A DNA stretch of 64,000 nucleotides from Gammaproteobacteria bacterium (GTDB lineage: Bacteria > Pseudomonadota > Gammaproteobacteria > Pseudomonadales > Azotimanducaceae), in the NCBI GenBank assembly GCA_026707945.1, contig JAPOVV010000074.1, positions 1 through 64,000 of the forward strand, given 5' to 3'. This document shows, one piece after another, positions 7,190-14,809 of the stretch. The translations under genes and the position numbers were made by a program. Under the pieces are notes generated by a model that was not told the DNA's origin, did no database searches, and saw nothing but the letters and a program-made list of their open reading frames with translations. The number at the start of each line of letters is the position of its first letter. Within the stretch, counting starts at the first letter, position 1.

Positions 7190-8158
7190 TCAAGGTCGGG
7201 ACAACTCTTGCGCATCGCGCGCGGCTAAGGCTGCAGCATGCACAAGAGAAGCTGGGGAGTTTTCATCTGAACGACGTTCAAGTTGCCAATCGATATTTGC
7301 GCGCCCGAGCAAGCCATGTATCTGCATCCACAGATCCTTATTAGCGATGGGCTTGTCATTGGATTTACGCCAACCGCGTCGTCGCCATCCTTCCAACCAC
7401 TGTGTGACGCCCTTGAACAGATATTCGGCATCTGTCGTCACACTCACGGCTTCTTTTTCAGGTATCGAACGCATCAACTCGATCACGCCTGTGAGCAGGC
7501 AGCGATTCACACTCATTCGGTCTTGAACGCGTTGAGAGATGTCTACCTTTCCTTCTCTTTCTCGCACGATCGCCCATGCACTATGACTCTCGCCGATATT
7601 CGCGGCAGAAATGTAGAAGTTCACGTTAGGTGGCGGCGTAGCTGCTGTCGTTATCGTCCTTTCTTCGGTGATAGTTGAAGCAGCGTGGGTTTTACTGGCA
7701 GACATCGCAGCATCTCGGGCTGCTTGATCGACTAGCTCGTTGAAGGTATGTCCGGCATGCGCCTTGACCCAACGCCAATCAACCTGTAAACGCGTGTTCT
7801 GTGCATGCAGTTCAAGCCACAGATCCTTGTTAAGGACGGGTTGACCTTTTCGTCGTGTCCACCCATTAGCTATCCAGGCGTCCATCCATTCGGTAATACC
7901 ACGGCGAAGGTACTCGGAGTCGGTGAATAGTTCGACCTTCTCTCCGTCTGTACACGTCTTCAACGCTTCAATCGCTGCCGTTAGCTCCATGCGATTGTTG
8001 GTTGAATGCGCTTCGCTGCCTTTTACGAGCTCGTTGGCTTCGCCGTCGACGACCGGCAGGTAAGCCCAGCCACCAGGTCCGGGATTTGTAGGTGCACAGG
8101 AACCGTCCGTGTAAAGAACGACCTTGGACTTTGTTACGGTCTGACTACTCGATCTCAA
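7190..8158 (-). CDS. rnhA: Ribonuclease HI with a second, degenerate RNase H domain
   Basis: 322 residues, about twice the usual 150. The first domain (about 11-152) is a complete RNase HI that cuts RNA in RNA-DNA hybrids: Asp18 in YTDGSC, Glu58 in NRMELT, Asp80 in FTDSEY, His134 in KAHAGH and Asp144 in ELVDQA. After an Ala/Thr/Pro-rich linker (about 153-177) a second copy of the fold runs from about 178 to 318. There the equivalents are Ser184, Leu221, Asp243, Ser297 and His307, so only one catalytic acid survives. The basic handle segment (second copy about 254-277, with WLEGWRRRGW and KDLW) is well kept. The only usable start is a TTG overlapping the ppiD stop. dnaQ follows 17 bases downstream. 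Confidence 0.93.
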   Translation of the reverse strand: MRSSSQTVTKSKVVLYTDGSCAPTNPGPGGWAYLPVVDGEANELVKGSEAHSTNNRMELTAAIEALKTCTDGEKVELFTDSEYLRRGITEWMDAWIANGWTRRKGQPVLNKDLWLELHAQNTRLQVDWRWVKAHAGHTFNELVDQAARDAAMSASKTHAASTITEERTITTAATPPPNVNFYISAANIGESHSAWAIVREREGKVDISQRVQDRMSVNRCLLTGVIELMRSIPEKEAVSVTTDAEYLFKGVTQWLEGWRRRGWRKSNDKPIANKDLWMQIHGLLGRANIDWQLERRSDENSPASLVHAAALAARDAQELSRP

Positions 8159-10188: not shown

Positions 10189-10467
10189 TTAGCTGTTTAG
10201 TCGTTGCTTTAGTCGACTACCTGCTTTAAAAGCAGCGTTCGACGATGCGGCGACTTGAATCGGTTCTCCTGTTTGCGGGTTACGTGCAGTCCTTGCTGCG
10301 CGGTGGCGAACTTCGAAGGTTCCAAACCCTATCAGCATCACCGGATCCCCACTACACAGCGATTCAGCGATTGACTCAAGAATCGCGTCAAGTGATTTTG
10401 CGACATCGCCTTGCGTTAGCGAGTCATCCTTTGCAGCAGCCGCGCGGATCAAATCAGCTTTGTTCAC
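10189..10467 (-). CDS. hupB: DNA-binding protein HU
   Basis: 92 residues, the size of HU/IHF subunits. HU bends and compacts DNA as a dimer. The N-terminal helices (NKADLIRAAAAKDDSLTQGDV) are followed by GFGTFEVRHRAARTARNPQTG, the conserved base of the DNA-binding arm, where the NPQTG proline intercalates into DNA. The start is GTG with GGAG 8 bases upstream. Neighbours are clpX upstream and ppiD downstream. In E. coli and most relatives lon lies between clpX and hupB; here there are only 189 bases. HU rather than IHF is inferred from the ARNPQTG arm and this neighbourhood. Confidence 0.94.
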   Translation of the reverse strand: MNKADLIRAAAAKDDSLTQGDVAKSLDAILESIAESLCSGDPVMLIGFGTFEVRHRAARTARNPQTGEPIQVAASSNAAFKAGSRLKQRLNS

Positions 10468-10575
10468 TTACATATCTCCATGAACGTATGTGAGAAAAGA
10501 GCACCCGCGGGCGCACATCGTGTCAGCGACAATCATGCCGCATCTCCGTGTTGCAACGCAACTACTCCGTAAATA

Positions 10576-10596
10576 CTCGAACTTCCGATGTTCGAG
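10576..10596. repeat. 7-bp inverted repeat in the clpX-hupB gap, where lon would be expected
   Basis: CTCGAAC and GTTCGAG are separated by 7 bases. Without a T-run on either strand it is a poor intrinsic terminator; it could be an operator-like site or chance. The gap 10468-10656 has no open frame resembling Lon and no other gene I can support. Confidence 0.3.
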
Positions 10597-10656
10597 CGAT
10601 CAGATCGCATTGGATCTAACTCTGTTCCTAACAACTTCCTATCGCCGAGACTCGAT

Positions 10657-11943
10657 CTAAACCGTATCTCCGCCGCTTACTTTCTTTTCCAGCGGCTTGT
10701 ACTTCAGCATCGGCTTATGCGCCTCGCAATCACGAACCATCTTGGCATCGACTACAACGCCAACAACGTCAGATTTCGATGGTATCTCATACATGACATC
10801 GAGAAGCACTTCTTCAAGGATTGAACGCAAGCCGCGAGCACCAGTCTTTCGTTCAACAGCGCGCTCCGCGATAGCCTCCAGAGCATCTTCATTGAATACC
10901 AGGTCAACGTCTTCCATGCCAAGAATCGCCTGATATTGCTTAATCAGCGAGTTCTTTGGTTCAGTAAGAATCTTGACGAGCGCGTCTGTGTCAAGTTCCT
11001 GAAGTGTTGTGACGACGGGCAGACGCCCGACCAATTCAGGGATTAGCCCGTATTTGATGAGGTCCTCAGGTTCAACCGTTCGCAAGATCTCTCCGATCTG
11101 CTCGGCGTCCTCTTCACCTTGTACCGTCGCGTTAAACCCAATTCCACTCTTCGATGTACGGTTTTGGATAACTTTCTCTAAACCCGAGAACGCGCCACCA
11201 ACGATGAACAAGATATCCGACGTGTTAACTTGAATAAACTCTTGTTGTGGGTGCTTGCGCCCGCCTTGAGGCGGAATCGCGGCGGTCGTGCCTTCAATTA
11301 GTTTCAGTAAGGCTTGCTGCACGCCCTCACCCGACACGTCACGTGTAATCGACGGATGATCGGTCTTGCGTGAAATCTTGTCAATTTCGTCGATGTAGAC
11401 GATCCCACGTTCGGCCTTCTTGACATCGTAATCGCACGTCTGAAGAAGCTTCTGAATGATGTTCTCAACATCTTCGCCGACGTACCCTGCTTCAGTCAAG
11501 GTTGTCGCGTCCGCAATAACGAACGGTACCTTGAGCATACGCGCAAGAGTTTCAGCGAGAAGGGTCTTGCCGGAGCCCGTCGGACCTATAAGCAGGATGT
11601 TGGATTTTGCGAGCTCGACATCCGACTGCTTGGCACCGTTGCGAAGTCGCTTATAGTGGTTGTACACCGCCACTGACAGTATGCGCTTGGCGTAGTCCTG
11701 TCCGATCACATAGCCATCAAGGAACTCGTTGATTTTCTTCGGCACCGGCAGATCGTCGGCCTCAGGTCGCTCTTGCTCTACTGGCTTCTTGGGTTGCTTG
11801 ATAATGCCAGCACAAATCGCAACACACTCATCACATATGTAAACGTCATCCTGACCTGCGATGAGCTTGTCGACTTCTTGACCGTTCTTAAAACAGAAGG
11901 AACATTCAGCGACGTCGTCTGAGCCGCCTTCTCGATCACTCAT
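10657..11943 (-). CDS. clpX: ATP-dependent Clp protease ATP-binding subunit ClpX
   Basis: 428 residues, normal length. ClpX unfolds tagged proteins and feeds them to ClpP. The N-terminal zinc-binding domain has Cys14, Cys17, Cys37 and Cys40. The AAA+ module has Walker A GPTGSGKT at 120-127, the GYVG pore loop at 153-156, Walker B IVYIDEID at 181-188, and the SGIGFNA loop that docks on ClpP. The order clpP, small zinc-finger gene, clpX is read right to left. The ATG lies 31 bases after the stop of the small zinc-finger gene, so they are probably cotranscribed. Confidence 0.98.
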
Positions 11944-11974: not shown

Positions 11975-12244
11975 TTACTTGTGCTTCTTTACGATGCCAG
12001 AACAGATTGAGACGCAATCATTGCAAATGCTCTTGTGCATTTCGCTAGAGAAGAACATTTCGTTTTTTCGATACTTCCGAAAACAAAATGAACATTCGAC
12101 GCGTTCATCGGAGTACACTGCGACGCATTCATCACAAATATACACGTCGTCGTGGCCTGCGATGAGTAGGTCGACTTCTCGTTTGTCCTTCTTACAGAAT
12201 GAGCACTGGACCAATACACCGGAACTGCTTTCTAGGTCATTCAT
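11975..12244 (-). CDS. Stand-alone protein of two tandem ClpX-type C4 zinc fingers
   Basis: 89 residues consisting of two copies of the ClpX zinc-binding domain and nothing else. Finger 1 uses Cys14, Cys17, Cys37 and Cys40, the same numbering as in the neighbouring ClpX, and shares [15 protein letters not shown] and other runs with it. Finger 2 uses Cys51, Cys54, Cys74 and Cys77 and is more diverged ([14 protein letters not shown], then [12 protein letters not shown]). There is no AAA+ module. It lies inside the clpP-clpX operon, 155 bases after clpP and 31 before clpX. ClpX zinc domains dimerise and bind adaptors such as SspB and substrates such as lambda O, so a role in modulating ClpX is an inference. 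It probably arose by duplication of the clpX 5' end. Confidence 0.9.
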
Positions 12245-12399
12245 GTCGCTGATTTTCTTCGGTTCGCTCGTGCACGTTCGTGTGCTCCGTAGTCAAAGAA
12301 TAGCACGTTAATGACTGTAAACGCTATTCGTAATGTTGCACGCCTTGCTAGACAGTCCGACGGAACGTTCCGGTTTGTTTCGATTTTCACCTATATTCG

Positions 12400-13008
12400 T
12401 CATTCATTGACCGCTTTTGGCAGCTTGATACGTGGCTCTTGAACCTTATCGATCAAGCCGTATTCAGCCGCTTCGCCGGGGGTCATCCAATAGTCTCGAT
12501 CCGTGTCTTTTGCGATTTGTTCGACCGATTTTCCGGTATGCGTTGCCAACAATTCATTGAGCTGCTGCCGGATCGCCAAGATCTCGCGTGCAGCGATCTC
12601 GATGTCTGCAGCCACGCCTCTTGAACCGCCCGATGGTTGATGAAGCATGATTCTCGAATTCGGCAATGCAAAACGCTTGTTCTCAGCGCCTGACGCGAGT
12701 AGAAATGCACCCATGCTTGCTGCTTGACCGATGCACGTTGTCTCAACATCGCACCTTACGAACTGCATGGTGTCATAAATCGACAGTCCCGCCGTCACAG
12801 AGCCACCTGGTGAATTGATATACAGGTGTGTGTCCTTATCGGGGTTTTCAGACTCGCACCATAACAGTTGTGCAACGACCACACTAGCGACCGCATCATC
12901 GATCGCCCCATTGATGAAAATGATGCGTTCTTTTAAGAGACGTGAGAATAGATCGTAGGAGCGTTCGCCCCTAGCCGTCTGTTCTAACACCATAGGCACA
13001 AGCGCCAT
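12400..13008 (-). CDS. clpP: ATP-dependent Clp protease proteolytic subunit ClpP
   Basis: 202 residues from the ATG at 13008, which begins [19 protein letters not shown], the typical ClpP N-terminus. A longer reading would run back into tig and is rejected. ClpP forms the barrel-shaped serine protease of ClpXP and ClpAP. The catalytic Ser lies in [12 protein letters not shown], the His in [14 protein letters not shown] and the Asp in the following helical region near [18 protein letters not shown]. The start lies 19 bases after the tig stop, matching the conserved tig-clpP-clpX order. Confidence 0.97.
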
Positions 13009-13027
13009 ATGCAAGTTACTCCTGTAG

Positions 13028-14809
13028 TTACGTGTTCTTCTTGAACAGTTTTTTGAAAATTCCTGGTTTACTGTCTTCTTCGGCACCACGTTCCCCTACG
13101 TCGAGGTTCGCTTGGTCAGCTGCCATCGATTCGTCGCTGATCCCGCTCGTCGAGTGTGCATCCGCATCAGTTGCTTTATCTTCATTGGACTCTGGTGCGC
13201 TAGCGATATATCCCTCTGGATCTGGAAGACTTGGCGCTACCGTGAAGATATCCAAAGCCTCTTCCGCGTCCTCTCCGGCCGTTTGCGAGAAAAACGAATC
13301 GAATTCAACATCCTCGTCTTCGATCGTCGCTTCGTCTAGCAAGACCTTTGTTGCCTGTTCCAATAGGCTCTGCGTGACCAAATCTTGATAGTGTTGTTCG
13401 CCGTAGACGAAATCAAGATACTCTTGCGCTCGAGACTGGTCTTCGACCAAACTGACACTGTCAGCCTTAGCTTGAATCTGCGAAGCAACCCATTCTTGAT
13501 CCGCTTCTATATCGCGTTGTTCGATCAAGGCCTGTTGGGTTAATGTGAACGCAACACGCTGAATCGCACGATTTACCTCGCTCGTCCAGAAAACCCTTAG
13601 GCTCTCTGGCAGTAATCCTTCTTCCCCATTGCCAGAAGATGATGTATCGTCATCGTGGTCATCATCATGTTCGTGATCATGATCGTCCGCGTGAGGTTGC
13701 GCCATTAGTAGGTTTTGATCCAGTACCTCGCCATCGACAATCGGATCAAAAAGCCGAAACGCCATGAAGGTAGATTGGAGGTTTTGCTCACCAACCTGCG
13801 TACCTTCTAGAAACCGTTGCCGGAGCACCTCCCGCGGAATAGAGGCAATGTGCTGTTTCGCAAGCGCCCACATCGCACGATTCTGGAGCACTTGCTCGCT
13901 CGTTCGTTCAATGGCTTGCTCGATTGAATCACGGGCTACTGGTATCAAATCGTCGATACTCTCGACTTTCGTGTCTGGCGATGAATCTACAAGATGCCGA
14001 AATTCGGGCCGCGCAAAAAGAGCCTCGCCGATATGTGGCAGATCGCCAGTGTCAATTCGAACAACAGACAAGGACGAGTCGTTCGGCGCCGCTTCCTCGT
14101 TTATACCAAGCTCGTTGCTCAGTTCTTCATTTGAAACATCAAGATGGTCACCTACCTTTAAGCCTACAAGCTTTTCATGAAGTGATTCCGAGACATCGTC
14201 CTTAGGCGAGCGAAGTACGATTGGAAAACGTTCGGTCCTAGGATCGGCGGCGTCACGGTCTTCAGCATCCGTTTCGTCGGTGCGCGCAGCATTCAGTTGA
14301 AACTCAATCCAGACCCTGTCTCCGCTCTTAGATTCGATCTCGTCGCCATCCAGTTCGTACCACTCGATACAGCGCTCACGCGCAGTGTTAATCTGCTTTC
14401 TTACGTCTTCGTCGCTCAGATTCACATTCGGACGCTTGATAGTAATTTCTGATAAATCGCCGATCTCGATCTGGGGCATCGTTTCAACGCGTACCTTGTA
14501 GGTGTACGGCGAATCAACTGGCGCCGCGAGATATGGTCTTCCAATCCAACCCGCCTGCAACCCCTCCTCAGAAAGAATCTCAGTGCAATTCTCATTCACG
14601 ATCTTTTCGAGTACATCGTTTTCGATCGCGGAACCGTACCGTTGGGAAATAACTTTTCGGGGCGTTTTACCTTTGCGAAATCCCTTAAGATGTGCGCTCG
14701 ACGCCACTTCGTTCGTTAGTTCGTGTATACGCCCATCCAACGCTTCCTGACTAATAGGAACGGTGTATTCCCGAGTGAATTCACCGATTTGTTCGTACTC
14801 GTACGTCAT
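13028..14809 (-). CDS. tig: Trigger factor, long variant with eroded PPIase domain and acidic tail
   Basis: 593 residues against about 430 in E. coli. The N-terminal ribosome-binding domain is well conserved, with the L23-docking motif GFRKGKTP at 43-50. The middle PPIase region (about 163-255) keeps strand-like pieces such as GDRVWIEF and LVGLKVGD but lacks the usual GxxIPGFE core, so prolyl isomerase activity is doubtful. The C-terminal chaperone arms are interrupted by an Asp/His cluster with His373, 377, 379, 381 and 385, a possible metal site. After about residue 490 comes a low-complexity acidic tail ending in a basic amphipathic segment (GIFKKLFKK near 583-591). It lies 22 bases after tRNA-His and upstream of clpP. 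Confidence 0.93.

Follow-up and report, generated by a model that had tools for sequence, protein, structure and literature searches.

A clpX-derived paralogue with two zinc fingers between clpP and clpX, a candidate free docking domain

Introduction

The choice of substrates by ClpX is partly governed by adaptors docked on its zinc domain. In the window analyzed here, a stretch of 64,000 nucleotides from a gammaproteobacterium of the family Azotimanducaceae (GCA_026707945.1, contig JAPOVV010000074.1), fingers of this type are encoded both within clpX and in a small separate gene next to it. This locus raises the question of where a free-standing pair of ClpX-type fingers came from and what it might do beside ClpX.

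Results

A short gene with two ClpX-type fingers and no ATPase

An earlier note, made from the letters alone, described an 89-residue gene between clpP and clpX whose product has two C4 fingers of the ClpX type but lacks an ATPase. The open reading frame, Pfam, and equivalog profiles bear this description out, and a residue count confirms the cysteine positions that it gave (14, 17, 37, and 40; 51, 54, 74, and 77). The gene starts with ATG (ORF 12244..11975, minus strand), 155 bp after the end of clpP and 31 bp before the start of clpX. The features of the locus are as follows.

11975..12244, minus strand: double-finger gene, 89 aa (ORF, translation, PF06689 in two stretches, relatives in the same place, omega 0.207)
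12125..12205, minus strand: finger 1, Cys14 to Cys40 (coordinates calculated from the ORF)
12014..12094, minus strand: finger 2, Cys51 to Cys77 (coordinates calculated from the ORF)
10657..11943, minus strand: clpX, source of the copied finger (NF003745 and TIGR00382 equivalogs, PF06689)
11824..11904, minus strand: the finger of clpX itself, Cys14 to Cys40
12400..13026, minus strand: clpP, upstream neighbor (PF00574)
13028..14809, minus strand: tig (trigger factor), upstream (PF05697)
12297..12305, minus strand: TGCTATTCT, putative extended -10 element, read by eye in the gap
12272..12285, minus strand: GCAC-N6-GTGC inverted repeat ahead of the double-finger gene, by eye

The double-finger protein has an additional cysteine, Cys81, and the neighboring ClpX has cysteines at 14, 17, 37, 40, and 44, with the same spacing within the finger. 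An 11-residue stretch that the earlier note found common to finger 1 and the neighboring ClpX is seen in the translation. Against the Pfam family zf-C4_ClpX (PF06689), the whole protein scores 74.2 bits in two stretches (cut-off 27), and a six-frame search assigns 55.6 bits to finger 1 and 27 bits, exactly the cut-off, to finger 2. The second finger is weakly matched elsewhere too, reaching 28.8 bits in one relative (G010) and giving no PF06689 match at E≤1e-3 in another (G016). At E≤0.001, a search of the complete assembly (3.8 Mb, 117 contigs) with PF06689 gives only three hits, namely clpX and both fingers. PF06689 is the sole Pfam family above its cut-off in the protein, homology to the ClpC N-domain was not found by the criterion applied, and no ATPase domain was found by Pfam and equivalog profile search. 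Assignment as a ClpX was rejected, with scores of 41.9 bits for NF003745 and 37.6 bits for TIGR00382 against cut-offs of 359 and 370.75 and no AAA+ module, as was assignment as a known anti-phage defense protein, for which 0 PADLOC families matched at E≤1.

Finger 1 matches 2ds7, a solved structure of the ClpX zinc domain (E 2.4e-8), and keeps the ClpX hairpin sequence, and the hairpin of finger 2 is diverged. A predicted structure of the protein is of modest confidence (pLDDT 69.3), and a prediction from a four-sequence input was poor (pLDDT 44.5). The ClpX finger of the genus is itself diverged, at ≈50 to 60 bits to PF06689 compared with mostly 67 to 77 among the family matches listed.

The earlier note placed the gene in a clpP-clpX operon; its position between the two genes is as described, and "operon" is a reading of the spacing only. 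The putative -10 element TGCTATTCT was also seen by eye between clpP and clpX in five relatives (G010, G016, G001, G017, and G006), and a sigma-70 consensus scan ahead of the double-finger gene found no promoter. By eye, the inverted repeat is kept in G000 (the window genome), G010, G016, G001, and G017, and a GTGCAC also precedes the clpX of G016 and occurs at the G017 junction. Farther upstream, the trigger factor (13028-14809) is 593 aa in length; its C-terminal part is long, acidic, and rich in His, and the Trigger_C profile is barely visible (E 0.06).

Distribution of the compact gene among relatives

We examined 18 genomes of the genus, all that the search returned, designated G000 for the window genome and G001 to G017 for the others. 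A double-finger gene is present in four of them (G000, G010, G016, and G001), lies between clpP and clpX in all four, and keeps all eight cysteines in each. The search of related genomes that the earlier note had proposed shows, then, that the gene is not unique to the window genome and that its position is constant. The relatives discussed below, matched by identity, are G010 (JAJECH010000050), G016 (JAPOXV010000018), G001 (JAGWBO010000022), G017 (JAPOVY010000142), and G006 (VXLJ01000024), all metagenome-assembled Pseudomonadales or Gammaproteobacteria.

In one further genome, G015, a 96-codon frame between clpP and clpX (L058:4078-4365) encodes one extra finger, with an insertion between its cysteine pairs. 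This finger groups with the ClpX of G015 itself (SH-aLRT/UFBoot 75.4/80) and is probably an independent duplication. Twelve genomes have the clpX finger and no extra one, as read directly from the clpP-clpX gap in eight (G002, G003, G004, G006, G007, G011, G012, and G017) and by profile search in G005, G008, G009, and G014. The remaining genome, G013, which is 77% complete, gave no finger match at all.

Searches of wider samples were of limited sensitivity throughout. An alignment of the four proteins matched 10 of 206 family genomes at E≤1e-11, comprising the four double-finger genes, two genomes that matched only through clpX (G006 and G017), and four from a different genus (g50) whose matches are larger double-finger frames. 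This search was not exhaustive, since known larger frames in G088, G090, G094, G174, and G186 went unreported, and a diverged compact gene could therefore be missed. Among the matches listed for the order sample (390 genomes, five of the genus; E≤1e-6), only G000 and G010 had compact double-finger rows; a row spanning two fingers in G066 was set aside as a frame joining a ClpX finger to ClpP. The class (369 genomes) and phylum (398 genomes) samples gave a two-finger match in G000 only, with four genomes of the class sample matching through ClpX alone.

Origin by duplication and probable loss

To judge from the finger DNA and the leaders, the double-finger gene is a truncated clpX paralogue. 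The leader and 5' end of clpX were duplicated in tandem, and a second copy of the zinc finger was then joined in frame to the first. The G001 gene has 114 codons, and its finger 2 shares 96% DNA identity over 99 nt with the finger of its own clpX, the next-best clpX reaching 85%. This finger is preceded by a clpX leader read in frame, with Lys replacing the clpX start Met, and it is a fresh tandem duplication reached by read-through of the former clpX start. Finger DNA identities and the read-through leader support an origin from the ClpX zinc domain, whose finger type the earlier note had recognized.

A tree of the fingers with ClpX N-domains, also proposed there, places the second fingers of G000, G010, and G016 in one clade (SH-aLRT/UFBoot 98.5/99 for protein and 99.3/99 for DNA), so that all three share one older event. 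Finger 2 of G001 would be either a separate second duplication or the result of gene conversion. All four double-finger genes have the leader AGAAAATC, distinct from the clpX leader, and this common leader suggests that the first duplication was a single one across all four. In G000, G010, and G016, finger 1 shares 64 to 79% protein identity with the neighboring ClpX finger and finger 2 shares 36 to 45%, and the first 44 residues of ClpX are identical across the five genomes of the clade.

G017, which is without the double-finger gene, is sister to G016 in most trees, including the DNA tree of clpP and clpX (UFBoot 96). With tig and ppiD added for seven genomes (ppiD for the five other than G017 and G001), the same pair is supported at 100/100 by trees from nucleotides and from codons and at 100/96 by the tree from protein. 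The clpP and clpX protein tree conflicts, placing G017 with G000 at a support of 58, and the trees leave the branching order of G000, G010, and G001 without firm resolution. In G016 the gene is flanked by GTGCAC repeats, and by eye the G017 gap resembles the outcome of a deletion between them. A loss in G017 is the simplest account of these data and a probable one.

Purifying selection on the gene

Over 88 codons in G000, G010, and G016, the omega of the double-finger gene is 0.207, different from 1 with LR 34.7 and p=3.9e-9, an estimate that comes from three sequences only, with branch dS of 0.81 to 0.98. By half, omega is 0.148 for finger 1 and 0.254 for finger 2 in the same genomes, and 0.205 for finger 1 once G001 is added. 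The value for clpX in these three genomes is 0.007, so that the double-finger gene is ≈30 times higher. On these codon estimates, the gene is under purifying selection in G000, G010, and G016. The earlier note took a gene confined to this genome with dN/dS near 1 as counting against its view; four genomes carry it, at the omega given above, and this sequence check does not refute the view. The young finger 2 of G001 differs from its own clpX at 6 of 129 bases, four of the changes altering a residue and two silent, which gives no sign of constraint, and six changes are too few to judge. Because three relatives keep all eight cysteines at 50 to 57% protein identity and omega lies far below 1 in three of the four genes, we regard the gene as more than a chance open reading frame.

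The docking patch and potential ligands

According to PMC7804408, ClpX zinc domains are dimers, and trigger factor binds the zinc domain at a hydrophobic region with F16 and I46; this region overlaps the site of lambda O and is also where SspB and RssB bind. In the chain numbering of the solved structure, F16 falls on the Phe of CxFC and I46 on the seventh residue past the last Cys. All eight fingers of the four proteins have Phe at the F16-equivalent. At the I46-equivalent, all four second fingers have Ile, as does finger 1 of G001, and finger 1 of G000, G010, and G016 (three of four species) has Glu. By residue content, finger 2 carries both tested patch residues on a changed hairpin, and finger 1 has the hairpin without the whole patch. 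Given its Glu in three of four species, finger 1 may not bind the usual ligands, and we infer a division of labor between the two fingers.

SspB is encoded in 17 of the 18 genus genomes. Its tail reads LPxHLR[L/V]VKD in G000, G010, G016, G017, and G006 and LPSYLRVVKD in G001, and the LRLVKD or LRVVKD end presumably resembles the ClpX-docking tail of E. coli SspB; a literature search on this likeness gave no paper. G017 is without the double-finger gene, although it encodes SspB and its ClpX finger shows no difference in protein sequence. With SspB tails alike in G017 and G006, neither of which has the gene, no co-variation of the gene with SspB is seen.

Discussion

Relation to known proteins

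The closest known domain is the zinc-binding domain of ClpX itself (PF06689; PDB 1ovx, 2ds5-2ds8); both fingers of the window protein reach its Pfam cut-off and have the cysteine spacing of the neighboring ClpX. The window protein differs from ClpX in having no AAA+ module, two fingers per chain, a diverged finger 2 hairpin, and, in three species, a finger 1 that has lost the Ile46-equivalent.

Stand-alone fingers also occur in phage proteins. Among 60 IMG/VR loci found by alignment (L119-L178), 17 encode short single-finger proteins of 54 to 155 residues, an eighteenth (L159) is cut by the contig end, the others have longer, mostly ClpX-like frames, and none shows the cysteine pattern of a two-finger protein. 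Five of the single-finger loci (L154, L158, L164, L172, and L174) have a common "KYDELLK"-like N-terminal segment. Several PHROGs with stand-alone ClpX-type fingers (6797, 5259, and others) are mostly annotated as of unknown function. Like the window protein, the phage proteins have a finger and no ATPase, but a single one, often with an extra N-terminal segment.

The same family also has larger double-finger proteins (genera g50, g7, and g27), with frames of 171 to 392 codons. They likewise have two tandem PF06689 fingers and no ATPase (two scanned), but those read have a long N-terminal region, and they lie on a contig other than that of the clpX match or >40 kb from it. In g50 and g7, five frames of 241 to 392 codons (L095, L096, L097, L099, and L100) have the tandem fingers behind an "AREYGFSSW"-like N-terminal region; some genomes have more than one, and Pfam names the fingers only (two scanned). 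In G066 of the same family, clpP and the 5' end of clpX have been duplicated in tandem, yielding a 313-codon frame (L094:2885-3823) that joins a ClpX finger and ≈40 further ClpX residues to a second ClpP (PF06689 63.9 bits, PF00574 274.1 bits).

A functional precedent comes from actinobacterial ClpC2. PMC10030653 describes it as a partial ClpC1 homologue that has no ATPase and keeps cyclomarin A from ClpC1 by sequestering it, with an extra dimerization domain and its own promoter, which ClpC2 represses; its authors also propose phage proteins, substrates, and adaptors as possible ligands. By analogy, the window protein is also an ATPase-less paralogue of a Clp unfoldase N-domain, of ClpX rather than ClpC. 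The domains are unrelated, the ClpC N-domain not being a zinc finger, and ClpC2 has a known ligand, whereas those of the window protein are candidates. With its different domain, the window gene does not count as a ClpC2, although it may act in a similar way.

The earlier note knew of no characterized protein with this exact layout. For the compact form at the clp locus this stands, as we found no paper on it in the open PMC literature; related kinds do exist, and given the phage single fingers, the larger family proteins, and the characterized ClpC2, it is not wholly new. Stand-alone ClpX-type fingers as such are already known, and what the comparisons point to in the window is a selected, clade-specific, clpX-derived docking-domain paralogue.

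Possible roles of the double-finger protein

The explanation that we rank first, and hold tentatively, is that the double-finger protein acts in trans as a second ClpX docking domain, competing for the ligands of ClpX or redirecting them. The clpX paralogue has kept only the adaptor-docking zinc domain; its product, made beside ClpX, would work in trans as a free docking domain and bind zinc-domain ligands, whether the SspB tail, trigger factor, substrates, or hostile proteins or compounds; and this binding would lead to competition with, or redirected delivery to, ClpXP. Origin, position, selection, the kept patch, an encoded SspB, and the ClpC2 precedent favor it. The conservation of the gene, its purifying selection and probable loss in G017, the retained cysteines, and the patch residues of finger 2 are read from the DNA, and from them we infer translation, zinc binding, ligand binding, and competition. 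Against it stand the Glu in finger 1, the absence from G017 despite SspB, the lack of SspB co-variation, an omega from three sequences, a G001 finger 2 that looks unconstrained, the modest model, and the lack of a consensus promoter. The earlier note suggested an operon-encoded ClpXP regulator; the ClpX zinc-domain origin, adjacency to clpX, and selection fit that view, and the regulatory role itself is a proposal from them.

Ranked next, and possible though rather doubtful, is that the protein is an adaptor and no decoy, finger 1 pairing with the ClpX zinc domain and the surface-changed finger 2 bringing new substrates to ClpXP. Finger 1 is indeed closer to the neighboring ClpX finger in G000, G010, and G016 (64 to 79% versus 36 to 45% protein identity), its half has the lower omega (0.148 versus 0.254, point estimates), as expected if its partner is constant, and the ClpX zinc domains are dimeric according to PMC7804408. 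The quick change of finger 2 fits a decoy equally.

Two further readings are unlikely. One is that the protein has left the Clp system and is now a small zinc protein of the treble-clef type, its basic tail included, whose partner is nucleic acid or some other protein; the gene lies beside clpX in all four genomes, however, finger 2 has both tested patch residues, and finger 1 is ClpX-like. The other is an improbable extension of the docking-domain reading, in which the cell repeatedly copies its own docking domain as a diffusing decoy against attackers or hijackers that reach ClpX through this domain. Its targets might conceivably be phage proteins or natural products, which would make the protein a zinc-finger counterpart of ClpC2. 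Finger 2 would then be, equally speculatively, a fast-changing capture face and finger 1 the constant part.

Very unlikely is an inert by-product of short repeats that keep duplicating and deleting the clpX 5' end, for although duplications recur (G001 finger 2 and the G015 single finger, the latter probably a separate event), G017 probably has a deletion, the G001 finger 2 has four residue-changing and two silent changes from its own clpX, and another genus has a larger tandem duplication fusing a ClpX finger to a second clpP, the omega of 0.207 (p=3.9e-9 for G000, G010, and G016) and the retention of all eight cysteines in four of four genes, with branch dS of ≈0.8 to 1.0 among three, disfavor it.

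If the protein is a competing or redirecting docking domain, a free, selected zinc-domain copy beside clpX would allow the specificity of ClpXP to be set through titration or redirection. Different stages of the process are visible across the genus: one duplication is fresh, another is old and diverged, and a sister species has probably lost the gene, so that the idea can be tested through comparison of natural variants.

Further features of the window

The usual place of lon is between clpX and an HU gene. Here, no lon lies between clpX and the gene at 10189-10467, which we take to be HU-like (interval 10467-10657); a full-length lon is found elsewhere in the genome (G000:C9). The protein encoded at 7190-8158 is 322 residues long and carries two RNase H stretches in tandem (PF00075).
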